The notes under the pieces: model-generated
Databases searched by the model: none
The model's input: only the letters and a program-made list of their open reading frames with translations
Told to the model about the DNA's origin: nothing
Position numbers and translations under genes: made by a program
NCBI GenBank assembly: GCA_021793715.1
Contig: JAJYSF010000012.1
Span: 1-10,428, forward strand
Reading direction: 5' to 3'
DNA from: Actinomycetes bacterium
Lineage (GTDB): Bacteria; Actinomycetota; Actinomycetes; Actinomycetales; Microbacteriaceae
Length of the DNA: 10,428 bases
In this document: one piece after another, positions 1 through 10,183 of the stretch
How positions within the stretch are numbered: the first letter of the stretch is position 1
Layout: every line of letters starts with the position of its first letter

Positions 1-143
1 CGCGAGTTGCGGGCGAGGGGCGGCTGCCCGTCGGCGAGCTCGTGAGCGACGTGATCTCGCTCGACGAGATCAACGAGGGTATGGATGCGCTCGCCTCGGG
101 AGACGCGCTTCGCCAGCTGATCCGATTCGAAGGAGGGCGATGA
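1..143 (+). CDS. Zinc-type (MDR) alcohol dehydrogenase, C-terminal fragment
   Basis: An open frame enters from the left edge (first whole codon at 3) and stops at 141-143, giving 46 visible residues. The text LPVGELVSDVISLDEINEGM, followed by DALASGDALRQLIRF, is the usual last part of medium-chain zinc-dependent alcohol dehydrogenases: a 'LP(V/L)xELIS' strand, the 'LDEINEGF/M' helix and the closing 'G.ALRQVI.F' strand. These enzymes oxidise an alcohol to an aldehyde or ketone with NAD(P). Zinc ligands and the nucleotide fold lie outside the window, so cofactor and substrate are unknown. The stop overlaps the start of the thiolase gene, which puts it in the same operon; it may make the aldehyde or keto precursor of the acid handled downstream (inference). 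A quinone-reductase-type MDR member is the main alternative. Confidence 0.78.
   Translation, partial: RVAGEGRLPVGELVSDVISLDEINEGMDALASGDALRQLIRFEGGR
130..136 (+). promoter_or_regulatory. Ribosome binding site deciding the thiolase start
   Basis: AAGGAGG is a near-perfect Shine-Dalgarno. It lies 3 bases before the ATG at 140 and 6 bases before the ATG at 143. The spacing and the family's usual N-terminus (M-R-x-A-x-I) favour 143, although 140 would give the ATGA overlap common in this operon. Confidence 0.6.
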
Positions 144-1333
144 TGCGCGCAGCGATCATCTCCGGGGCCCGCACGCCGATCGGGCGTCGCGGGGGAGCGT
201 TCGCCGAGCTCGAGGCTCGAGACCTCGGTGCCGTCGCACTCGCCGAAGCGGTGACGCGCGCGGAGCTCGACCCGCGCGAGGTCGACGACGTCGTGCTGGG
301 CTCGACCTTGGCGCCGGACGGCAACCTGGCCCGCGTGGCGTGGCTGCACGCGGGCCTGCCCGAGACCGTGCCCGCACGGTCCATCGACCGCCAATGCGGA
401 TCGGGAATCGACGCCGTCTGGCTGGCCGCGCAGGCGGTGTCGACGGGGACGGCGACCACCGTCGTCGCGGGCGGAGCCGAATCGATGACACGTGAGCCCT
501 TCCAACTCGAGCGCTCGCTCCGTGCCTCTCCCATGACCCCGCCGACATTCCTCCGCCGCCGGCTGTCGAGCGACGCGGCCGGGGATCCCGGAATGGGAAT
601 CACCGCGGAGAACCTCGCTGAACGATTCGGCATCGGTCGCGAGACCCAGGACGCGTTCGCGGCGGCCAGCCAGGCACGCTACGAGACCGCGCGGGCCAAC
701 GGCTGGATCGACGGCATCGTTCCGGTCGAGACGGCGGGTGGCCGGATCGACGCCGACGAACACCCGCGCCCCCTCACGACCACGGACGGGCTGGCGAGGC
801 TCCGCGCCGCGTTCACGGCCGATGGCACGGTCACGGCGGGAAACTCCTCCGGCATCAACGACGGGGCGGCCGCGGTCGTCGTGGTCAGCGCGGAGGAAGC
901 CGGGCGCCGCGGCGCCCGCCCTGTCGCGTGGGTCGTCGACGGGGCCGTTGCGGGCGTCGACCCGAACATCATGGGTGTGGGGCCCGTACCCGCGATCCGA
1001 CGGCTGCTCGCGCGCACGGGCTGGTCCCTCGACGAGGTCGATGTGATCGAGATCAACGAGGCCTTCGCCGTCCAGGCGATCGCCTGCACACAGGAGCTCG
1101 GCCTCGACGCCGAGCGCGTGAACGCGTGGGGCGGGGCGATCGCGCATGGCCACCCGATCGCAGCGACGGGAACGGCTCTCGTGATGAAGGCGGTCGACCA
1201 GCTCGCTCGGCAGGGCGGCGGGCGCGCCGTCGTCTCCGCGTGCATCGGGGGAGGGCAGGGCATCGCGCTCGCGATCGAGGTCGATGCGTCGACGACAGGG
1301 CCCGCCGGATGGACTCAGAAGGAGAGAACATGA
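143..1333 (+). CDS. Thiolase (acetyl-CoA C-acyltransferase)
   Basis: This is a full-length thiolase of 396 residues (397 if translation starts at 140). It cleaves 3-ketoacyl-CoA with free CoA to give acetyl-CoA and a shortened acyl-CoA, the last step of beta-oxidation, in the cytoplasm. Numbered from 143, the nucleophile is Cys85 in DRQCGSG, followed by GGAESM (110-115), NEAFA (305-309), the catalytic His337 in AHGHP and the acid/base Cys367 in SACIGGGQG. All three key residues are present, so it should be active. One oddity is GHPIAATG, where Ala replaces the Gly of the usual GHPxG(A/S)(S/T)G loop. The gene overlaps both neighbours and is followed by the hydroxyacyl-CoA dehydrogenase, as in beta-oxidation or aromatic-acid operons. 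Chain-length preference cannot be read; a biosynthetic acetyl-CoA acetyltransferase is less likely in this context. Confidence 0.93.
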   Translation: MRAAIISGARTPIGRRGGAFAELEARDLGAVALAEAVTRAELDPREVDDVVLGSTLAPDGNLARVAWLHAGLPETVPARSIDRQCGSGIDAVWLAAQAVSTGTATTVVAGGAESMTREPFQLERSLRASPMTPPTFLRRRLSSDAAGDPGMGITAENLAERFGIGRETQDAFAAASQARYETARANGWIDGIVPVETAGGRIDADEHPRPLTTTDGLARLRAAFTADGTVTAGNSSGINDGAAAVVVVSAEEAGRRGARPVAWVVDGAVAGVDPNIMGVGPVPAIRRLLARTGWSLDEVDVIEINEAFAVQAIACTQELGLDAERVNAWGGAIAHGHPIAATGTALVMKAVDQLARQGGGRAVVSACIGGGQGIALAIEVDASTTGPAGWTQKERT

Positions 1334-2193
1334 CACGTATCGAAACTGCCGTCGTGTGCGGTGCCGGGGCGATGGGCAGCCAGATCGCGATGCTGGCCGC
1401 GCTCGCCGGCTGCGCGACGACGATGGTCGATGTCGATCAGAGCCGGCTCGACGCCGCGATCGCGCAGCTGAAGAGACGCTGCGCCCGGTCGGTCGAGAAG
1501 GGCACGCTGGATGCGGACGAGGTCGACGCCGCGTTCGCCCGGCTCGGCACGTCGCTGGACCTCGACGTCGCGGCCCGGGGCGCCGATATCGTCATCGAGG
1601 CGATCGTCGAGGACCTCGATGCGAAGCGCGAACTGTTCCAGCGGCTCGCGCGCGCCACGCGCTCCGACGCCATTCTCGCGACCAACAGCTCGAGCATCGT
1701 GTCGAGCAAGCTCGCGGACATCGCGAATCCCGAGCGCGTGTGCAACATGCACTTCTTCAACCCCGCGCTCGTGATGACACTCGTCGAAGTCGTCGGCGGC
1801 GAGCACACGTCGCCGGCCACGGTCGACGCGGTCGTCGATCTCGCCGATCGCATGCGCAAGACGCCCGTCGTCGTGCGCAAGGAGATCTTCGGGTTCATCG
1901 CCAACCGCATCGTCGCGGCGATCTTCGACGAGGCCATCGACCTCCTCGAAGCGGGAGTGGCGACGGTCGAGGACATCGACCGCGCGGTCACGAACGGACT
2001 CGGACACCCGGTGGGGCCGTTCGCGCTGCTGGACATGACGGGCATCGACGTCAACGTCGCCATCAAACGGCTCGAGGCCCAAGAGACGGGGGATCCGTCG
2101 CGCGGACCGTCACGGACCCTGCTCGAGCTCGAGAGCGCAGGCAGGATCGGCCGCAAATCCGGCCATGGCTTCTACGAATACGGTGCGTCATGA
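1330..2193 (+). CDS. 3-hydroxyacyl-CoA dehydrogenase (FadB2/PaaH/Hbd-like)
   Basis: A stand-alone L-3-hydroxyacyl-CoA dehydrogenase of 287 residues, the normal length for the single-function family. It oxidises 3-hydroxyacyl-CoA to 3-ketoacyl-CoA, feeding the thiolase encoded just upstream. The N-terminus carries the Rossmann loop GAGAMG (11-16), with Asp34 after the second strand, which favours NAD over NADP. The catalytic region shows TNSSS (118-122), His141 in HFFNP and Glu153 in LVEVV, and the C-terminal domain has FIANRI (189-194) and GLGHPVGPFALLDMTG (223-238). The ATG at 1330 overlaps the thiolase stop (ATGA) and follows AAGGAG (1319-1324) at 5 bases. Another frame stays open upstream of this start but is a shadow of the thiolase. 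L-carnitine dehydrogenases share this fold, but the thiolase and hydratase neighbours favour beta-oxidation. Confidence 0.93.
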   Translation: MTRIETAVVCGAGAMGSQIAMLAALAGCATTMVDVDQSRLDAAIAQLKRRCARSVEKGTLDADEVDAAFARLGTSLDLDVAARGADIVIEAIVEDLDAKRELFQRLARATRSDAILATNSSSIVSSKLADIANPERVCNMHFFNPALVMTLVEVVGGEHTSPATVDAVVDLADRMRKTPVVVRKEIFGFIANRIVAAIFDEAIDLLEAGVATVEDIDRAVTNGLGHPVGPFALLDMTGIDVNVAIKRLEAQETGDPSRGPSRTLLELESAGRIGRKSGHGFYEYGAS

Positions 2194-2990
2194 GCGACCT
2201 GCGGGCGGACATCGCCGATGGGATCGGCACGATCACCCTCGATCGTCCGGAGGCGCTGAATGCGCTCACCGGCGAGGTGACGGAGTCGATCGCCAGACGG
2301 ATCCGGGAATGGGAGGCGTCGGCGAGCGTCGACGTCGTGATCGTCACGGGCGCGGGCGACCGTGCGTTCGCGGCGGGGGCCGACATTCCGGAGCTGCGCT
2401 CCAAGAGCGGAATCGAGATGACCCGGCGCGGGATGCAGCACGCGGTATCGGTGCTGCGCGAGTCGTCGTTGCCGACCATCGCAGCCCTGAACGGACTCGC
2501 GTTCGGCGGGGGATTCGAATTGGCGCTCGCGTGCGATGTCCGCATCTCGGTGCCGCGTGCGACGTTCGCGTTCCCCGAGACCGGCCTCGGCATCATCCCG
2601 GGGGCCGGCGGCACGCAGATGCTCACCCGGATCGCGGGGAGCGCCGTGGCTTCGCACCTCATCCTGACCGGCGCGCACCTGCGCGCCGACCGCGCCCACG
2701 AGCTCGGGATCGTCGCGTCGATCCACGAACCGGATGACCTGATGCCGGCGGCCGCTCAGCTCGCGCAGGAAATGCGCCGCAAGGGGCCGCGCGCCCTTCG
2801 ACTCGCGAAGGCTGCCATCGCCGCCGCCAACGACACCAGCATGGCCGCGGGGCTGCAGGTCGAGCTGCTCGCCCAGGCCGTGCTGTTCGAGACTGCCGAC
2901 CGTGACGAGGGCATGGATGCGTTCCTCGCGCGTCGTCAGCCGCACTTCGACGGCGAAGTGCGTCACGATGAAAAGGAGTCAACCTCATGA
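2190..2990 (+). CDS. Enoyl-CoA hydratase (crotonase family, both catalytic Glu present)
   Basis: A 266-residue crotonase-fold enzyme, family length. It should add water to a 2-enoyl-CoA to give the 3-hydroxyacyl-CoA used by the preceding dehydrogenase. The oxyanion-hole segments are AFAAGADI (59-66) and GLAFGGGFE (102-110). Both glutamates needed for hydratase chemistry are visible: Glu110 in GFELALACD and Glu130 in FPETGLGIIPGAGG (equivalents of rat Glu144 and Glu164). The C-terminal EGMDAFLARRQPHF is the classic CoA-side helix. The ATG overlaps the dehydrogenase stop (ATGA) and I see no Shine-Dalgarno before it, so translation is probably coupled. A much longer upstream extension of this frame is a shadow of the dehydrogenase. 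Of the two crotonases in the operon, this is the better candidate for the true hydratase. Confidence 0.92.
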   Translation: MSDLRADIADGIGTITLDRPEALNALTGEVTESIARRIREWEASASVDVVIVTGAGDRAFAAGADIPELRSKSGIEMTRRGMQHAVSVLRESSLPTIAALNGLAFGGGFELALACDVRISVPRATFAFPETGLGIIPGAGGTQMLTRIAGSAVASHLILTGAHLRADRAHELGIVASIHEPDDLMPAAAQLAQEMRRKGPRALRLAKAAIAAANDTSMAAGLQVELLAQAVLFETADRDEGMDAFLARRQPHFDGEVRHDEKESTS

Positions 2991-3241
2991 GCATCGATAC
3001 CCGTCCGGACGCGACGCGGGGCTTCTTCCGCATCTCGCGATTCCGGCTCTGGGCGACCATCGTCATGCTGATCCTGACGGTCGCCACGCTCAATCCGTGG
3101 GCGTACAGCACCGTGGTCGGCGGCACGTCGCTGATCAACTACATGTTGTGCGGCCTCATGGTCGCCGCGTTCACCGTGATGGTCATCGACCTCATCGTCA
3201 CGCGCAACGCCCCGACCGGTGAGGAGCGCGACGATGCCTAA
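2987..3241 (+). CDS. Small two-helix membrane protein paired with the symporter (DUF997/DUF485-like by context)
   Basis: An 84-residue protein with a short cytoplasmic-looking, Arg-rich N-terminus (GFFRISRFR), a first hydrophobic helix at about 21-38, a short loop with Gly-Gly, a second helix at about 48-70 and a charged tail ending GEERDDA. It overlaps the hydratase stop (ATGA), follows a strong AAAAGGAG (2971-2978) at 8 bases, and overlaps the symporter start by 8 bases. Small two-helix proteins directly upstream of sodium:solute symporters are known, such as YhdT before PanF and YjcH before ActP in E. coli. By size and position this is the same kind of partner. I assign it by context and topology, not by a diagnostic motif. 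It probably assembles with or stabilises the symporter. Confidence 0.8.
   Translation: MSIDTRPDATRGFFRISRFRLWATIVMLILTVATLNPWAYSTVVGGTSLINYMLCGLMVAAFTVMVIDLIVTRNAPTGEERDDA
3221..3226 (+). promoter_or_regulatory. Ribosome binding site fixing the symporter start
   Basis: GAGGAG lies 7 bases before the ATG at 3234. A GTG at 3219 in the same frame overlaps this site and has no good site of its own, so 3234 is the better start. The site sits inside the end of the small membrane protein gene, consistent with coupled synthesis of the pair. Confidence 0.6.
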
Positions 3242-4712
3242 CCCGATTCCCCTCGTGATCCTGATCGTCTACATCGCGTTCTGCGTCGGAGTCGGCCTCT
3301 ACGCCCGCCGCGGGGGCCACAACAGCAGCCGTCAATACCTCACCGGTGACGGCAACGTCGGCGTCTGGGTGAACGGCTTCGCGATCTTCGCGGCCTTCGC
3401 CACGGGCGGTACGATGCTCGGCAACATCGGTCTGTCGTACGCCGGTGGATGGGGATACATCACGGCCTACAACGGCGGGGTGGCGCTCGGGTACCTCATC
3501 GCGACGTTCTTCCTGGCGAAGGTGCTGCGCAACATGCGCATCTCCACCGTTCCGGAGTTCCTGCGCGTCCGGTATCACAACAGGGTGCTGAACACGATCG
3601 TCCCGATCATCCTGATCGGCGTCCTCGTCGCGTATCTCGTGGCGCAGATGAAGGTGGGCGGCATGCTCGGCGAGCAGCTGTTCGGCTTCGATTACGGCTG
3701 GTCGGTGATCGTCATCGGCGCCGTGTACATCTTCTACACGTTCTTCGGCGGAATGAAGGCGGTCACGCTGACCGACTTCGTGCAGGGCCTGTTGATGATC
3801 TCGGTGGTCGTCATATGCGGCGGCATCGCCTTCGCCGCCCACAGCGGTCCGGCGTCGCTGTACGATCTCGCGACGACGCTCCGCCCCTTCTGGAGCGGGG
3901 CCGAGGCCTACCCACTCGTGTCGTACATCGGCGCGTTCATCATCTGGGGCACGGTCAACGCGGTGCTTCCTCACACGATCATGCGCATCTTCGCGGCGAA
4001 GACGGAGCGTGCCGGCCGCGGCAGCCTTGCGGTCGGCCTCGGCCTGTACATCGTCACGTCGATCGCGACGACGGTCTTCATCGTCGGCGCCGTGATCATC
4101 CTCGAGGGAGGGGAGGATCTGGCGTCGTTCGACGACACGTTCCTCGTGTTCCTCGCGAAGCAGACACCCGCCTGGGTCGCCGGCCTCGCGTATGCCGGCA
4201 TCTTCGCGGCGGTCATGTCGTCCGTGAGCGCGATGCTGCTCGGTCTCGGCGGCGCGTTCGCCTACGACCTCGTCGGTCAGTTCCGCCCGGACATGAAGGA
4301 CTCGTCCTTGCGCAAGCTGACGAGCTGGAGCGTTCTCGGGTTCGGAGTGCTGACACTCCTGCTGTCGCTGAACCCGCCCGAACTGCTCACGATCCTCTAC
4401 ACCGCGGCCGTCGGCCTGCTGGCATCGGCGCTCTTCTTCCCGACGCTGCTCGGCATCTGGTGGAAGCGGATGAACACGCTCGGCGCCCTCCTCGGCGTGA
4501 TCGTCGGCGGCGCGTCCTATCTGATCCTGCTGTGGGGCGTCGAGATGCCGACACTGTCTCAGATCACGGTGTCGCTGCCGCTCTCGCTCGTCGCGTGCCT
4601 CATCGGCACCTGGGCCGGCAAGCCGCCGACCGCGGCCGAGCTCCGGCGGGTCAGCGTCGCCCACGAGCGCGAGTACGTCGAGGAACAGCAGCCGGTGGAA
4701 GAGACGAGGTAG
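3234..4712 (+). CDS. Sodium:solute symporter family permease (PanF/ActP-like)
   Basis: A 492-residue multi-spanning permease of the SSS family (TC 2.A.21), about 13 hydrophobic segments, starting directly in a helix (PLVILIVYIAFCVGVGLY). Family signatures are visible: YLTGDGNVGVWVNGFAIFAA in the first helices, FGGMKAVTLTDFVQG (171-185), PHTIMRIFAAK (246-256) and MSSVSAMLLG (328-337), the helix whose Ser residues form the Na2 site in characterised members. The C-terminal tail (about 463-492) is charged and cytoplasmic. It should take up a small solute with sodium. Lying between beta-oxidation genes and a CoA ligase, the cargo is most likely the carboxylic acid degraded by this operon (inference); pantothenate or short organic acids are cargoes of related members. 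The end lies 2 bases before the thioesterase start. Confidence 0.92.
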   Translation: MPNPIPLVILIVYIAFCVGVGLYARRGGHNSSRQYLTGDGNVGVWVNGFAIFAAFATGGTMLGNIGLSYAGGWGYITAYNGGVALGYLIATFFLAKVLRNMRISTVPEFLRVRYHNRVLNTIVPIILIGVLVAYLVAQMKVGGMLGEQLFGFDYGWSVIVIGAVYIFYTFFGGMKAVTLTDFVQGLLMISVVVICGGIAFAAHSGPASLYDLATTLRPFWSGAEAYPLVSYIGAFIIWGTVNAVLPHTIMRIFAAKTERAGRGSLAVGLGLYIVTSIATTVFIVGAVIILEGGEDLASFDDTFLVFLAKQTPAWVAGLAYAGIFAAVMSSVSAMLLGLGGAFAYDLVGQFRPDMKDSSLRKLTSWSVLGFGVLTLLLSLNPPELLTILYTAAVGLLASALFFPTLLGIWWKRMNTLGALLGVIVGGASYLILLWGVEMPTLSQITVSLPLSLVACLIGTWAGKPPTAAELRRVSVAHEREYVEEQQPVEETR

Positions 4713-4714
4713 TC

Positions 4715-5116
4715 GTGTACGTCACACAGATCGAACCGCGCATCAGCGAGACGGACGTCGTCGGTCATATCAACAACACGGTTCCCCCCGTGTGGTTCGA
4801 AGCGGGCCGGAACGAACTGTTCCGCGTGTTCATGTCCGATGGCACCCTCGACGACTGGCCGATGATCGTGAAAGCGTACAGCGTGGTGTTCGAACGCGAG
4901 CTGCGGTACGGATCCGTGGCGAGCGTCGAATGCGGCGTCGAGCGGATCGGCACCACGTCGGTGACGCTCGACGAGCGGATCCTTCAGGACGGCGAGATCT
5001 GTGTGACCGGCAAGACGACCTATGTGCACGTGGGGCCGGACGGGCGCCCGGCCCCCGTGCCAGCTGAGATACGAGCTGAGCTGGAGCGACACCTGCCAGC
5101 TGAGGAGAAGAGATGA
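4715..5116 (+). CDS. Hotdog-fold acyl-CoA thioesterase (4HBT/FadM-like)
   Basis: A 133-residue single-domain hotdog protein, normal size for the 4-hydroxybenzoyl-CoA thioesterase/YbgC/FadM group. The N-terminus SETDVVGHINN (11-21) matches the family's active-site region, with Asp14 in the catalytic position, then WFEAGRNELFR (28-38) on the central helix. Instead of the common NNxxYLxYFE the protein has NNTVPPVWFE, so a Pro-Pro pair replaces an aromatic residue near the pocket. The GTG start at 4715 follows GAGG (4706-4709) at 5 bases; no ATG is available in a sensible place. The stop overlaps the next crotonase (ATGA). Likely roles are hydrolysis of a pathway intermediate or release of CoA from dead-end esters, like PaaI in phenylacetate degradation (analogy, not orthology). 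Confidence 0.88.
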   Translation: MYVTQIEPRISETDVVGHINNTVPPVWFEAGRNELFRVFMSDGTLDDWPMIVKAYSVVFERELRYGSVASVECGVERIGTTSVTLDERILQDGEICVTGKTTYVHVGPDGRPAPVPAEIRAELERHLPAEEKR

Positions 5117-5892
5117 CCGACAGGATCACGCTCACCCGGGCGCAAGGCGTTCTCGAGATCACGCTCGCGCGCCCCGAAGCGCTCAACGCGCTGGAGAACT
5201 CGATGATCGCGGCGATCTGCGACGCGCTGGACGACGCGTCGGCGGACCCCTCCGTGCGCGCCGTGCTGGTGCGCGGTGAGGGCAAGGCGTTCTGCGCGGG
5301 GGACGACCTCGTCGACATGGGCACGGCCGAGCACCCGGAGCCCGACGACCTGCGCACGCGCTATGCGGACGGCTACCCGCGGATCGTGAACAAGATCGTC
5401 GAGCTGGACAAGCCCGTCGTGTGCGCCGTGCAGCGGTATGCGCTCGGTGCGGGCTTCGAGATCGCGCTCGCGAGCGACCTCATCGTCGCGGACGAGACCG
5501 CGCGGTTCGGCCTGCCGTTCGTGCTGCGGGGAATCGCCTCCGGCACCACGATGCTGGTGCGCCGCACCTCGTGGCACGTCGCGATGGGTCTTCTCGCCAC
5601 CGGCGGGATGATGGACGCCGCGACGGCGGACAGGCTCGGCCTGATCGCGCAGCTGGTGCCGGCGGACGAGGTGCGGGATGCCGCCACGAGCCTCGCCCGC
5701 TCCCTCGCCGCGTCCGCCACGAGCGCGATCGGAATGATGAAGTCGGCGATGCGCTCGGGGGAGGACCTGCCGGTACGGGAAGCGTTCGGCCTTCAGATCG
5801 ACGCGACGGCGGCGAGCGCGCTCACGCACGACTTCGCCGAGGGCAAGCTCGCCTTCTCGGAGAAGCGCGATCCGAGGTTCGAGGGGAGGTGA
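5113..5892 (+). CDS. Crotonase-family protein lacking the second catalytic Glu
   Basis: A 259-residue crotonase-fold protein. The oxyanion-hole parts are clear: AFCAGDDL (59-66) and YALGAGFE (109-116). Glu116 in GFEIALASD matches the first hydratase glutamate. Where the second should be, this protein reads FGLPFVLRG, placing Phe136 at that position, while the paralogue in this operon has Glu130. With one acid only it is unlikely to be an ordinary hydratase. Crotonases with a single acidic residue do double-bond isomerisation (PaaG type, Dci type), decarboxylation, hydrolysis or ring chemistry. It is coupled to the thioesterase by an ATGA overlap, with GAGGAG (5102-5107) 5 bases upstream, and lies 4 bases before the ligase. 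Family membership is certain; the reaction is not. Confidence 0.88.
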   Translation: MTDRITLTRAQGVLEITLARPEALNALENSMIAAICDALDDASADPSVRAVLVRGEGKAFCAGDDLVDMGTAEHPEPDDLRTRYADGYPRIVNKIVELDKPVVCAVQRYALGAGFEIALASDLIVADETARFGLPFVLRGIASGTTMLVRRTSWHVAMGLLATGGMMDAATADRLGLIAQLVPADEVRDAATSLARSLAASATSAIGMMKSAMRSGEDLPVREAFGLQIDATAASALTHDFAEGKLAFSEKRDPRFEGR

Positions 5893-5896
5893 ACGC

Positions 5897-7522
5897 ATGA
5901 CAGACACGGCACGCGGTGCGGGTACGGCGCCGACCCGCGATCTACCGATCCACGCGTACGTCACGGAGCACGCCCGTGAGCGGCCCGATCACGATGCGAT
6001 CGTCTTCGGCGACAGCTCCATCAGCTACGCGATGCTCGAGAGCCAGGCGATCCAGCTCGCCGCCTATCTCGCGGAGCGCGGCGTCACCAAGGGCGACACC
6101 GTGGCGCTGTTCATGCAGAACTCGCCGCAGTTCATCGTCTCGTTCCTGGCGATCCAGCGATTGGGCGCCGTCGTCGGACCGTGCAACCCGATGTTCAAGG
6201 AGTGGGAACTCGAGTACCAACTCGGCGACCTCGGGGCGAAGGTGCTGATCACCTTCGACGAACTCGTCGAGGTGTTCCGCCGGGTGGAGAAGAGCGATGT
6301 CCACACCGTCGTATGCGCCAGCTTCGCCGACGTCGTCGGGGATCCGAGAACGATTCCCGTCGATCCCCCGGGAGCCGTCGTCCACGAGAACGGATCCGTC
6401 GAGACGGTGCGATTCGCCGACGTCGTCGCAGGGGACCGCGCGGCGCCCGCGCCCGTCGAGATCGATATGGTCAACGACCCGAGCCTCGTGATCTATACGT
6501 CGGGCACCACCGGCAAGCCGAAGGGCGCGATGCTCTCGTATCGCAACGCCGAGTTCAAGACCGCGTGCCTCGTCGCGACCTTCGGGTTCTCGGGTGAGGA
6601 CGTCTTCTGCTCCGTCATGCCGATCTTCCACATCGCGGGCATGGTCGTCGGAATGACCTCTCCCCTCATGGCGGGCGCCACGATCGTGCTGGAGGCGCGA
6701 TTCGATCCTCAGGTCATGCTCCACGACATCGCCCGGACGCGCGCGACCGTCCTCTACGTGACCCCTCCGATCACGCACGGTCTCCTGGACGCGGATGCGG
6801 ATCAGCGCGCCGCTCTCCAAGATGTGCGGCTCACGCTCGGAACGAGCTTCGGAATGCAGATCGACCGCGAGCTGTCGGACCGCTGGCAGGCGGTTGCCGA
6901 CGTTCCGCTGTTCGAGTGGGCGTATGGCATGAGCGAGACCCACACCGGCGACACGCTGATGCCGCCGGAAGCGATCCGCTACGGCTGCCACGGCAAGCCC
7001 ACCTTTGAGACCGAGCTGCGGATCGTCGACGCGGAGGACCCGACCCGGGATCTGCCCGCCGGCGAGGTCGGCGAGATCCTCGTGCGATCGCCGAGCGTCT
7101 TCCTCGGATATCGCGGCAGACCGGATGCGACCGCCGAGGTCCTGATCGACGGGTGGTACCACACGGGAGACCTCGGCCGGATCGACAGCGAGGGGTATCT
7201 TCACTTCGACGGCCGCAGCAAGGAGATGATCAAGAGCTCCGGGTACTCGGTGTTCCCGGAGGAGGTCGAGGGGATGCTCATCCGTCACGACGACATCGTG
7301 GAGGCCGCCGTGGTCGGGTACGCGGACCCGAAACGCGGCGAGAGCGTGCGCGCCTTCGTGGTGCTCCGGAGCGGTGCGGAGCCCACGGAGGAGGACATCG
7401 TGTCGTGGTCGCGCGAGCGGATGGCCGCGTACAAGTACCCGCGCGAGGTGCGCTTCGTCAGTTCCCTCCCGCACACGACGACGGGCAAGCTGCAACGGAC
7501 CAAACTGAAGCGGATGACGTAG
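5897..7522 (+). CDS. Acyl-CoA synthetase (ANL superfamily AMP-forming ligase)
   Basis: A complete 541-residue adenylate-forming ligase. It activates a carboxylic acid with ATP to an acyl-AMP and then to the CoA thioester, supplying the substrate of the operon. Core motifs in order: the phosphate loop YTSGTTGKPKG (200-210), WAYGMSETHTGD (341-352, the YGxTE motif with Ser for Thr), DGWYHTGDLGRID (418-430), the hinge region DGRSKEMIKSSGYSVFPEEVE (438-458), and the C-terminal PHTTTGKLQR (525-534) with catalytic Lys531. Length and motifs resemble medium-chain, CaiC-like and aromatic-acid ligases; substrate-pocket residues (about 240-345) do not let me choose among them. It follows GGGGAGG (5883-5889) at 7 bases and is the last gene of the operon. 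No hydrophobic targeting segment is seen, so it is cytoplasmic. Confidence 0.93.
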   Translation: MTDTARGAGTAPTRDLPIHAYVTEHARERPDHDAIVFGDSSISYAMLESQAIQLAAYLAERGVTKGDTVALFMQNSPQFIVSFLAIQRLGAVVGPCNPMFKEWELEYQLGDLGAKVLITFDELVEVFRRVEKSDVHTVVCASFADVVGDPRTIPVDPPGAVVHENGSVETVRFADVVAGDRAAPAPVEIDMVNDPSLVIYTSGTTGKPKGAMLSYRNAEFKTACLVATFGFSGEDVFCSVMPIFHIAGMVVGMTSPLMAGATIVLEARFDPQVMLHDIARTRATVLYVTPPITHGLLDADADQRAALQDVRLTLGTSFGMQIDRELSDRWQAVADVPLFEWAYGMSETHTGDTLMPPEAIRYGCHGKPTFETELRIVDAEDPTRDLPAGEVGEILVRSPSVFLGYRGRPDATAEVLIDGWYHTGDLGRIDSEGYLHFDGRSKEMIKSSGYSVFPEEVEGMLIRHDDIVEAAVVGYADPKRGESVRAFVVLRSGAEPTEEDIVSWSRERMAAYKYPREVRFVSSLPHTTTGKLQRTKLKRMT

Positions 7523-7594: not shown

Positions 7595-8182
7595 TCACCG
7601 CGTGTCGAGCACCCGGTCCGCCAGCCCGTAGTCGACCGCGGCGGCCGCCGTGAACACGCGGTCACGGTCGGTGTCGCGGCGCAGGGTCGCGACGGTCTGT
7701 CCAGAGTGGTGGGCCAGCACGCCCTCGATCTCGCCGCGCACGCGCACGAGCTCGTCGGCGTTCAGGATGAGATCTGGGATCGCGCCGCGCCCCTGACCGG
7801 CGGGCTGGTTCAGCACGATCCGTGCGTGGGGGAGCACGCCGCGTTTGCCCTCCGCGCCGGCCGCGAGTAGCACGGCGCCCACGCCGACCGCTTGGCCAAC
7901 GCACGTCGTCGCGACGTCCGGCGTGATGTACCGCATCGTGTCGTAGACGCCGAGCATCGCCGCCGGATCGCCGCCCTCGCAATTGATGTAGAGCTGGATG
8001 TCGCGGTCGCTGCCGGTCGCCTCGAGGTGCAGCAGTTGCGAGATGAGCGCGTTTGCAACGCCCGCGTCGATCGGCGTGCCGAGGTAGACGACCCGCTCCG
8101 AGAGCAGGTGCGAGTAGACGTCCATGATGCGCTCGCCGCGGCTGTCGCGCGAGATGACGTTCGGGATCGTGTAACTGCTCAT
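7595..8182 (-). CDS. ClpP-family subunit without catalytic Ser and His (ClpR-like)
   Basis: A 195-residue intact ClpP-fold protein, normal length. It keeps the family frame: ERVVYLGTPID (29-39), IQLYINCEGGD (62-72, CE for the usual SP), GEIEGVLAHHSGQ (150-162) and RDTDRDR (169-175) with the Asp of the triad (Asp174). The nucleophile loop, however, reads GQAVGVGA, with Gly100 in place of the catalytic Ser of GQAASMGA, and the next strand reads IVLNQP, with Asn125 in place of the catalytic His. I checked both codons on the minus strand (GGC and AAC). It should not cut peptides alone. The ATG overlaps the stop of the preceding active-type clpP (ATGA), with GGAGG 7 bases upstream, so the two are probably made together and form mixed rings, as ClpR does in cyanobacteria and plastids (inference). 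The reading frame is undamaged, arguing against a decaying pseudogene. Confidence 0.92.
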   Translation of the reverse strand: MSSYTIPNVISRDSRGERIMDVYSHLLSERVVYLGTPIDAGVANALISQLLHLEATGSDRDIQLYINCEGGDPAAMLGVYDTMRYITPDVATTCVGQAVGVGAVLLAAGAEGKRGVLPHARIVLNQPAGQGRGAIPDLILNADELVRVRGEIEGVLAHHSGQTVATLRRDTDRDRVFTAAAAVDYGLADRVLDTR

Positions 8183-8799
8183 GCCGCCGCCTCCGATCCG
8201 ATTCCGATTCGCGACCGTCGTTCCGGCATCACCTCGTGGAATCCGTCGACGATGCCGTCGATGAATCCGTAGTCGAGCGCCTCGCGCGCGGTGAACCAGT
8301 TGTCGTGCAGCGAATCCTCGAAGATCCGCTCGAGGGGCTGCCCCGTGTCGTCGCTCGTGAGCCCGAGCACGGTGTCGCGCAGCTCGCGCAGGTCTCCGGC
8401 CTGCAGCTCGACATCCGCCGCCGAGCCGCCGATGCCCGCCGATCCCTGGTGCAGCAGGACGCGCGCGTGGGGGAGCGCGCGGCGCTTGCCGGGTGTGCCG
8501 GCGGAGAGCAAGAACTGGCCCGCGCTGCACGCGAGACCGATCGCGAGCGTCGACACGTCGCACGGCACGAGCCGCATCACGTCGCGAATCGCGACCATCG
8601 ACGGCACCGACCCGCCCGGCGAATGGATCCACAGCGCGATGTCGCTCTGCGGATCCTCCGCGGCGAGCGTGAGCATCTGGGTCGTCAGCAGCATGCCGTT
8701 GTCGTCGTCCAGTACGCCGTCGAGCACGAGCACGCGGCGCAGGAGGAGCTCGCGGCGCACCTCGGCCGTGAACTGGGGGACTTTCGTCTCTTCTGTCAT
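8179..8799 (-). CDS. clpP: ATP-dependent Clp protease proteolytic subunit (triad present)
   Basis: A 206-residue ClpP-family serine peptidase. The fold markers are LRRVLVLDGVLDD (20-32), IALWIHSPGGSVPSM (54-68) and the nucleophile loop GLACSAGQ with Ser92, where most ClpPs read GQAASMGA. Catalytic His117 lies in VLLHQG and the Asp is Asp166 in EDSLHDNW. The triad is complete, but the loop is divergent, suggesting an accessory ClpP rather than the housekeeping copy. ClpP forms a cytoplasmic degradation chamber fed by ClpX or ClpC. I chose the ATG at 8799 (MTEETKVPQF). A 47-residue longer form starting at 8940 would overlap the divergent peptidase gene and does not look like a ClpP N-terminus. 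The ribosome site (GGCTGAAGAC) is weak. The next gene, a catalytically dead paralogue, overlaps it by 4 bases. Confidence 0.92.
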   Translation of the reverse strand: MTEETKVPQFTAEVRRELLLRRVLVLDGVLDDDNGMLLTTQMLTLAAEDPQSDIALWIHSPGGSVPSMVAIRDVMRLVPCDVSTLAIGLACSAGQFLLSAGTPGKRRALPHARVLLHQGSAGIGGSAADVELQAGDLRELRDTVLGLTSDDTGQPLERIFEDSLHDNWFTAREALDYGFIDGIVDGFHEVMPERRSRIGIGSEAAA

Positions 8800-8884
8800 G
8801 TCTTCAGCCTGGGCGTCGCGGTCGGCACGGATGCCCGGATCCGCCCACGGCAGATCTGCTCTCAGCGGCTGAAAGGATAGAGGG
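8800..8884. promoter_or_regulatory. Divergent intergenic region between clpP and the peptidase
   Basis: These 85 bases must carry promoters for both directions. I see a 10-base perfect palindrome GCAGATCTGC (8850-8859), an 8-base palindrome CGGATCCG (8836-8843), and an inverted pair TTCAGCC (8803-8809) / GGCTGAA (8867-8873), one copy in front of each gene's start. On the minus strand TATCCT (8879-8874) could be a -10 element, but no good -35 sits upstream. I see no GTTCGC-N5-GCGAAC-type ClgR box. All of this is weak evidence for operators. Confidence 0.4.
8872..8877 (+). promoter_or_regulatory. Ribosome binding site for the GTG-started peptidase
   Basis: AAAGGA lies 7 bases before the GTG at 8885. 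The in-frame ATG at 8903 has no comparable site, so the GTG is the better start. Confidence 0.5.
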
Positions 8885-10183
8885 GTGCACACGTTCGAGT
8901 TCATGCTGCGCGGTCTGTGCGTCCGCGACATCACGATCACCGTGCCCCTCGACTGGGCGAACCCCGGGGAGGGGCGTCACATCGATGTCTTCGCGCGCGA
9001 GGTCGTCAGGCCGGAGATGGCCGACGCGCCGATCCTGTTATTTCTGCAGGGCGGTCCCGGCGGCAGCGGGCCGCGCCCGATGCCGGGCGAGGGATGGATC
9101 CACGAAGTGCTCGCGACTCACCGTGTCGTGCTGCTCGACCAGCGCGGCACGGGGCGCTCGACGCCGATCCAGGGATCCACGATCGCGGGGATGACGGCAG
9201 AGGAGGGCGCTGACTACCTCCGCTGCTTTCGCGCGGAGCAGGTCGTCGCCGACGCAGAGCACCTGCGCCGCGAGGTGTACGACGGGGCGCGCTGGCAGAC
9301 GCTGGGACAGAGCTACGGCGGTTTCCTCACCCTCAGCTACCTCTCGTTCGCCCCCGAGGCGCTCGAGGCCTGCTATGTCACGGGCGGCATCACGACGATC
9401 GACCCGGATCCGGCGGCGATCTACCGCAACACCCTGCCGCGCGTGCGGCGCAAGGGCGACGAGTTCTACCGCCGCTACCCGCAGCACGTCGAGACCCTGC
9501 AGACCATCGTCGACGTCGTCGAGAACGACGACGTGCGGCTGCCGAGCGGGGATCGGCTCACCGCGCGCCGCCTGCAGACGCTCGGCATCGACTTCGGCAT
9601 GGCCCCCGGCACGGAGCGGCTGCTCTGGCTGCTCGACGGCGCCGTCCTGCCGACCGGACGCCTCAGCGACGCCTTTCTCGACGGCGTGGACCAGCGCACG
9701 CAGTACTGGGGCTCGCCGCTGTATGCCGTGCTGCAGGAGGAGATATACGCGGACGGCCATGGCGCGACGCGCTGGGCCGCGCATCGCGTGCGAGAGGAGC
9801 TCGGCGGATTCGACGCGGTGGACGAGGTCGCCGCGGGGCGCCCCCTGCCGTTCACGGGGGAGATGTTCTTCCCGTGGCAGTTCGATGAGATCATCTCGCT
9901 GCGGCCCTTCCGGGACGCTGCCATGGCGCTGCACGAGCGCGCGGAGCACCCCGAGCTGTACGACCGGGCGCAGCTCTCGCGCAACGAGGTGCCCGTCGCC
10001 GCCGCGATGTATCACGACGACATGTTCGTGCCGATCGAGTTCGCGGAGGCGACGCGCGATGTCGTGCCGAACATGCATCTGTGGATCACGAACGAGTTCG
10101 AGCACGATGGGATCCGACAGGACCCGACGGTCGTGCGGCGCCTCATCGACCGCGTGATCGAGGAGGGCGGGCCGCGCCGCTAG
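8885..10183 (+). CDS. Alpha/beta hydrolase, S33 prolyl aminopeptidase-like
   Basis: A 432-residue alpha/beta-hydrolase of the peptidase S33 type that removes N-terminal proline (or related residues) from peptides. No signal peptide is seen, so it is probably cytoplasmic. The N-terminus has the actinobacterial family pattern of a short strand domain (ITVPLDWANPGEGRHIDVFA, 18-37), then the oxyanion loop LQGGPGG (54-60), LLDQRGTGRSTP (83-94), the nucleophile elbow GQSYGG with Ser143, a cap domain (about 170-330), Asp378/Asp379 in YHDDMFVP, and catalytic His407 in NEFEHDG. All three catalytic positions are filled. The 430-residue form is longer than the ~310-residue classical iminopeptidases but normal for the actinobacterial group. 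It is divergent from the clp pair, so it could trim peptides they release (inference). Other S33 esterases cannot be excluded. Confidence 0.87.
   Translation: MHTFEFMLRGLCVRDITITVPLDWANPGEGRHIDVFAREVVRPEMADAPILLFLQGGPGGSGPRPMPGEGWIHEVLATHRVVLLDQRGTGRSTPIQGSTIAGMTAEEGADYLRCFRAEQVVADAEHLRREVYDGARWQTLGQSYGGFLTLSYLSFAPEALEACYVTGGITTIDPDPAAIYRNTLPRVRRKGDEFYRRYPQHVETLQTIVDVVENDDVRLPSGDRLTARRLQTLGIDFGMAPGTERLLWLLDGAVLPTGRLSDAFLDGVDQRTQYWGSPLYAVLQEEIYADGHGATRWAAHRVREELGGFDAVDEVAAGRPLPFTGEMFFPWQFDEIISLRPFRDAAMALHERAEHPELYDRAQLSRNEVPVAAAMYHDDMFVPIEFAEATRDVVPNMHLWITNEFEHDGIRQDPTVVRRLIDRVIEEGGPRR

Follow-up and report, generated by a model that had tools for sequence, protein, structure and literature searches.

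A triad-deficient ClpP4-type subunit encoded behind an active-type partner in a candidate second Clp core of actinobacteria

Why bacteria and plastids retain ClpP subunits that lack the catalytic triad is the question addressed here, and the function of ClpR subunits is itself described as poorly understood (PMC9067928). In actinobacteria, work with Streptomyces hawaiiensis reported that full proteolysis is kept when ClpP1 is combined with ClpP2 S131A, and that ClpP2 docks the ATPases, its pocket mutants abolishing proteolysis (PMC9765437). In this line, mycobacteria were reported to require only the catalysis of ClpP1 and only the docking of ClpP2, and a double 'forced asymmetry' strain, from which both redundant functions had been removed, grew like the controls (PMC9067928). 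The viability of S. lividans is described as needing either clpP1clpP2 or clpP3clpP4 (PMC9765437), and triad-deficient alleles had been mentioned before in Streptomyces coelicolor and Nocardia asteroides (PMC9067928). Our search of the literature, which covered few subscription papers, found none that dealt with a tie between such alleles and the PopR core, with counts of repeated loss or with a reciprocal pocket; older Streptomyces work may mention the ClpP4 residues. The existence of triad-deficient alleles is thus already known, and what appears to be new is the breadth of the phenomenon, its repetition and a reciprocal pattern between the two subunits.

The gene at 7595..8182 and its partner

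The window (the whole stretch of 10,428 nucleotides that was analysed, from a relative of Microbacterium) carries two overlapping ClpP genes:

7595..8182, minus strand: second-pair subunit on the ClpP2 side (ClpP4-type; P0001), with Gly100/Asn125/Asp174 at the triad positions and the docking aromatics Tyr65 and Tyr85 present
8179..8182, minus strand: ATGA stop/start overlap of the P0002 and P0001 genes, read from the sequence
8179..8799, minus strand: partner subunit (ClpP3-type; P0002), with Ser92/His117/Asp166 intact and Ala/Trp/Leu at the positions of E. coli Tyr74/Tyr76/Phe96

The P0001 frame, read from 8182 to 7595, starts with ATG and encodes 195 amino acids with no internal stop. The coordinates, frame and residue numbering proposed in an earlier note on this DNA proved exact, with Gly100 encoded at 7885-7883, Asn125 at 7810-7808 and Asp174 at 7663-7661. 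Its claim of a retained ClpP fold was also borne out, by the Pfam CLP_protease match (PF00574, 202.1 bits against a cut-off of 20.2), by three printed alignments to solved ClpPs, all gap-free (E 6e-57 to 1e-55), and by a predicted structure, which reached a pLDDT of 83.7 from a mixed alignment of both subunits (only 38 from a shallow one) and a TM of 0.85-0.88 to ClpP structures among 50 listed. P0001 is 46% identical to E. coli ClpP, and its score against the ClpP equivalog TIGR00493 (205.4 bits) lies below the curated cut-off of 308.6. In the alignments to solved ClpPs, Gly100 occupies the position of the nucleophile Ser and Asn125 that of the catalytic His, so that P0001 lacks the Ser-His-Asp triad of ClpP (PF00574) and is, like ClpR, a ClpP homologue without it. 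No shifted Ser or His was found in the neighbouring blocks GQAVGVGA and IVLNQP, and the loop GQAVGVGA contains no Ser, Thr or Cys. Moreover, the replacement is not a mere quirk of one strain: the protein P0003, 99% identical to P0001, has identical residues at the triad positions, eight of the 120 nearest proteins listed, P0003 being one of them, read Gly-Asn-Asp, and the nucleophile Ser is absent in 79 of the best 80 loci.

The framing of P0001 as a lone paralogue did not survive, since the overlapping upstream gene, left unmentioned in the earlier note, encodes a ClpP with an intact triad. A homologue of P0001 lies directly behind an intact-triad partner at 80/80 nearest loci (the best 80 of 458 relatives), and P0001 itself has the place of a second gene behind an intact-triad ClpP, as in a PopR-type second Clp core. 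The ATGA overlap is shared by 155 of 201 related pairs, and we infer that it couples the translation of both genes.

By best NCBIfam match, mostly below the curated cut-off, the plus-strand genes at 140-7522 resemble genes of acyl-CoA catabolism; they comprise a thiolase (above the cut-off), a 3-hydroxyacyl-CoA dehydrogenase, two enoyl-CoA hydratase-like genes, a sodium/solute symporter, a thioesterase-like gene and an acyl-CoA ligase. These neighbours were considered as functional partners of the pair and rejected, having no match (E 1e-10) in flanks of up to 3 kb at the 80 nearest loci, where the divergent hydrolase gene at 8885 has matches at 2/80.

Triad states, trees and constraint

A scan of genome contigs provided the best 80 of 458 relatives, all of them actinobacterial loci, with Microbacterium, Glycomyces, Actinomadura, Herbidospora, Streptosporangium, Cellulomonas, Pseudofrankia and Embleya among their genera. 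To these were added the best 30 loci from 61 genomes of the Streptomycetaceae (a family sample reached through an Embleya genome), the best 30 from 296 genomes of the phylum, the best 30 from 394 genomes of the class, and 80 further regions taken by score from the class list. Loci lacking an adjacent pair, eighteen in all, were excluded. They comprise 14 solitary Ser-His-Asp genes from the phylum sample together with L269 (SHD), L272 (SDD), and L143 and L183 (both AHD), which belong to one genome (G127) where the partner gene lies ~256 bases away with no overlap. The distinct adjacent pairs amounted to 211, the window included, from which nine rows grouping with or nearest to canonical ClpP2, all Ser-His-Asp, were removed after the tree, leaving 202.

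The second subunit has a broken triad in 167 of these 202 pairs and the first in none, in a sample weighted to the kin of the window (second triad broken in 79/80 nearest loci, 27/27 Streptomycetaceae, 8/8 phylum and 52/86 class rows). With the nine canonical-like rows kept, the first subunit is intact in 211/211 and the second broken in 167/211. Whereas the first subunit reads SHD in 202/202, twenty triad states, counting the intact one, were found in the second: AHD (68), SHD (35), SGD (30) and GHD (29) are common, ADD, EHH and EHN (5 each), SHN (4), GND, SHA and WHT (3 each) are rarer, and SGE, GHE and SHS (2 each) and GDD, WHD, SDD, AQD, SHH and FHN (one each) are rare. The best 80 of the 458 loci comprise AHD 49, GHD 22, ADD 5, GND 2, GDD 1 and SHD 1, and 34 of the 35 intact second subunits come from the 86 class-wide rows. 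Ser-Gly-Asp was found in 119 of 120 listed proteins of the Streptomyces ClpP4 type, the organism-named ones being all from Streptomyces. A protein of 331 amino acids (P0123), with CLP_protease and PF25145 matches and a Ser-His-Asp reading, matches the Streptomyces ClpP4 type over 97% at 63% identity and is possibly a fused pair. Close to the active site, the strand SPGG reads CEGG in P0001, as in about half of the second subunits (Cys in 98/211, Glu in 99/211); first subunits keep its Ser in 211/211 and its Pro in 209/211.

The genomes of 19 relatives all hold an additional pair with both triads Ser-His-Asp (19/19), labelled as canonical clpP1P2 on the basis of the gene arrangement and the tree; additional ClpP hits occur in six of these genomes. 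The second subunits form a clade of their own beside canonical ClpP2, both in a quick tree of 112 rows (an 88-row clade, 96) and in a careful tree of 54 rows (a 44-row clade, 98/92), and P0001 falls in it together with the Streptomyces ClpP4 type. By the sequence evidence, P0001 belongs to a PopR-type second Clp core, distinct from the housekeeping clpP1P2 of the 19 relatives. The earlier description of P0001 as a ClpR-like subunit holds as far as a triad-deficient ClpP fold is concerned, but it was not filed as ClpR because it groups with the actinobacterial second-pair proteins, of the ClpP4 type with PopR boxes; an ancestry separate from cyanobacterial and plastid ClpR is likely.

With the triad columns excluded, parsimony counted 7 changes between intact and broken states over 112 rows and 8 over 54 rows, the latter interpreted as seven losses plus a regain, a distinction that the counts themselves cannot make. 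The residue lost differs between lineages. Ser was lost in the clade that contains P0001 and in a group next to it, Streptomyces has lost His, and two clades have lost Asp; L233 and L260 are isolated cases, of His and Asp loss respectively. Forcing all broken rows together with L042 was rejected (p-AU 2.48e-36), as was forcing all Ser-less rows together with L042 (p-AU 5.8e-5), both groups having been chosen after the tree was viewed. The addition of 28 near proteins raised the count to 11 changes, with Ser-His-Asp proteins nesting several times in the Ala/Gly clade. Nested in this way are locus L042 and the proteins P0051, P0066, P0070, P0072, P0075, P0079, P0085, P0103, P0106, P0112, P0113 and P0122, whose loop reads GQAVSVGA or GEAVSVGA and in which the nucleophile Ser has apparently returned. 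A search for orthologues with an intact triad thus gave a mixed result, most being broken and Ser-His-Asp appearing in 12/120 nearest proteins listed and in 35/202 second pairs; for this reason the triad of the second subunit, as judged from these readings, is labile and its dead state is not fixed.

The gene itself appears well conserved, with NG86 dN/dS values, rough at high G+C, of 0.139 against the closest fetched locus (L001), 0.197 against L002 and 0.195-0.308 against ten further Microbacterium; the second-subunit gene gave 0.052-0.121 in five closer pairs. Equivalent values for the active partner were 0.111 (L001), 0.148 (L002), 0.277-0.356 (ten Microbacterium) and 0.053-0.111 (closer pairs). 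The range of 0.05-0.31 points to purifying selection on the P0001 gene and therefore makes a structural role likely, as had been suggested from the preserved frame.

A PopR-type box and a second ClgR-family gene

Upstream of the pair there are two predicted boxes:

8840..8854, minus strand: PopR-type operator at position -55 relative to the P0002 gene; its sequence, TCTGCCGTGGGCGGA, fits TCYGCC-N3-GGCRGA without a mismatch
8855..8869, minus strand: further upstream, a degenerate copy of the box (GCCGCTGAGAGCAGA) with 3 mismatches, adjoining the main box in a 15-bp register

The Streptomyces PopR site is given in a review as TCTGCC-3N-GGCGAATCTGCC-3N-GGCAGA (PMC9775585), a tandem 15-bp design that is the same as the one in the window, where the main box is a predicted PopR-type operator without mismatch. 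Over the 202 upstream regions the best match had 0 mismatches in 96, 1 in 72, 2 in 27, 3 in 6 and at least 4 in 1. Up to 2 mismatches were thus found in 195/202 regions against ~16 per set shuffled in two-base blocks (means of 0.1, 1.55 and 14.55 regions with 0, 1 and 2 mismatches), for a consensus that was fixed after some of the counted sequences had been viewed and for which the published site and the shuffles serve as controls. A pair of boxes at 15-bp spacing, neither with more than 3 mismatches, occurs in 169/202 regions, a raw count with no shuffled control. In the 19 regions upstream of canonical clpP1P2, the best match has 1 mismatch in 4 and 2 mismatches in 2, and the remaining 13 lack a match of this quality. 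In L090 and L096-L099, boxes like TCTGCC-N3-GGCGAA (one of them TATGCC) lie 79-114 bp upstream of canonical clpP1, and a shared ClgR/PopR control of canonical clpP1P2 is possible in these genomes.

PopR itself was searched for beside Streptomyces clpP3clpP4 by pattern, by Pfam (ten readings, one locus) and by BLAST, with no match, and a PopR-like gene was located after going through CinA to ClgR and searching with ClgR. At E 1e-8, the ClgR family has two copies in 16/16 genomes with a second pair and a single one in 14/14 genomes without it (a second copy in 0/14), the latter having been picked for showing only two hits in the class-wide scan. In 14 of the 16 genomes no more than 400 bp separate the second copy from the pair, in one the distance is ~3.2 kb and in one the copy lies elsewhere; its position and kinship to ClgR suggest that it is a PopR-like gene. 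Such a gene is present at 68/80 nearest loci; none was found in the 10.4 kb window nor at the other 12/80, some of which end at contig ends. A housekeeping clpP pair was likewise not seen in the window.

A proposed division of labour and its alternatives

The ATPase pocket was read at the positions of E. coli Tyr76 and Phe96, counting Trp and His as aromatic. Both are among the three residues of published docking mutants (PMC9765437, PMC4416901); the third, Tyr74, is variable in both subunits. Aromatics occupy both positions in 202/202 second subunits and in 2/202 first subunits, and in canonical pairs in 19/19 of each subunit. In the window, positions 76/96 are Tyr/Tyr in the triad-deficient P0001 and Trp/Leu in the active-type P0002, whose pocket loss depends on Leu at 96 because Trp at 76 is itself aromatic. 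Since Mycobacterium tuberculosis ClpP1 is reported to have Leu at this position as well (L83, PMC4416901), the loss of the pocket is no peculiarity of second pairs and exaggerates an asymmetry that already existed. Moreover, the tree shows a single change at position 96 of the first subunit, and this change is for that reason not repeated evidence; the pocket was probably lost early and the triads later. A correlated, repeated loss of triad and partner pocket is not claimed, given this single change and an independent-pairs test of triad loss against partner pocket loss that comprised 3 supported pairs (p 1) and had no power.

Gene order, residues, operator sequence, kinship, constraint and reciprocal conservation, as observed here, are the basis of our main reading, to which we give a probability of roughly 0.74: a second core in which the first subunit cuts and P0001 docks ClpX/ClpC and completes the barrel without cutting. 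In the window organism, P0001 and P0002 would assemble into a mixed barrel under PopR-like control, P0002 contributing the active sites and P0001, itself inactive, the hydrophobic docking pockets for ClpX/ClpC. By analogy with Streptomyces, such a core might be made when the housekeeping ClpP1P2 fails. Deadness of the second subunit does not appear to be a required feature, because 35/202 are intact and Ser comes and goes in the window's clade (12/120 listed nearest). A somewhat bolder step, which we still consider probable, is that the division of labour became complete, one subunit giving up docking and the other giving up catalysis in about seven lineages through different triad positions, with the nucleophile apparently returned in some of them, as a natural counterpart of 'forced asymmetry'.

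The same machine is compatible with a neutral account, in which catalysis by the docking subunit is dispensable and the triad wanders by relaxed drift, the broken state having no role or benefit of its own. The interchange of Ser, Ala and Gly in the window's clade, the twenty triad states (intact included) and the reported dispensability of ClpP2 catalysis in mycobacteria (PMC9067928) and Streptomyces (PMC9765437) all fit this account. However, mutants show that the catalysis of canonical ClpP2 can be spared as well, and yet the triad of this subunit is intact in 19/19 genomes, which argues that the second core differs in constraint, and we regard drift as a possible but clearly less likely explanation. 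It is improbable that P0001 acts as a brake or decoy that joins the housekeeping ClpP1P2 or forms its own rings to lower or redirect proteolysis instead of serving P0002. In favour, P0001 has kept its ClpP fold and its docking aromatics, and S. hawaiiensis ClpP-ADEP is reported to disrupt ADEP-activated ClpP1 complexes (PMC12607617), but the gene sits directly behind an active-type partner at all of the best 80 of 458 loci, the second-subunit clade stands apart from canonical ClpP2, and Streptomyces clpP3clpP4 is described as substituting for clpP1clpP2 in viability (PMC9765437). Activity of P0001 by a non-classical route, for which the Listeria ClpP1 heterocomplex with Asn for Asp offers a described case (PMC9765437), is very unlikely given Gly at the nucleophile position, Asn at the base position, a loop devoid of Ser, Thr and Cys, and CEGG in place of SPGG. 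A pseudogene or sequencing error, favoured only by the triad loss itself, is extremely unlikely given the intact frame, a low dN/dS near that of the active partner and the same residues in separate relatives.

Repeated triad loss in one subunit, beside intact close relatives and a canonical pair intact in 19/19 genomes, constitutes a natural experiment on why triad-deficient subunits are retained, and division of labour between P0002 and P0001 predicts which subunit must be hit to stop the second core.

Among known systems, Listeria ClpP1 resembles P0001 in being the one of two ClpPs whose triad is atypical, but is reported to carry only Asn for Asp and to be active in a heterocomplex (PMC9765437). 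The ClpR of cyanobacteria and plastids shares with P0001 a triad-deficient ClpP fold and is part of a mixed core, that of Synechococcus being described as sharing each ring with ClpP3 (3:4) (PMC4673316). ClpP1P2 of mycobacteria and Streptomyces is, like the proposed second core, reported as heteromeric, with a catalytic first subunit and a second one that docks the ATPases; both of its triads are intact, while in the window the second triad is lost and the docking positions of the first subunit are altered, so that the second core resembles a natural version of the asymmetry engineered in mycobacteria. Streptomyces clpP3clpP4, of the PopR regulon, shares with the window pair its gene order, a tandem PopR-type operator, an intact first and a triad-deficient second subunit and a common clade, at 50-56% identity; unlike it, the window pair has no regulator gene alongside. 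The Streptomyces ClpP4 type keeps Ser and has Gly for His, whereas P0001 has lost both Ser and His and kept Asp. The ClpP4 type thus lacks His despite clpP3clpP4 being sufficient, the S. lividans protein itself lying outside this reading, and ClpP3P4, described as a backup core, would be recast as a protease in which a single kind of subunit is active.
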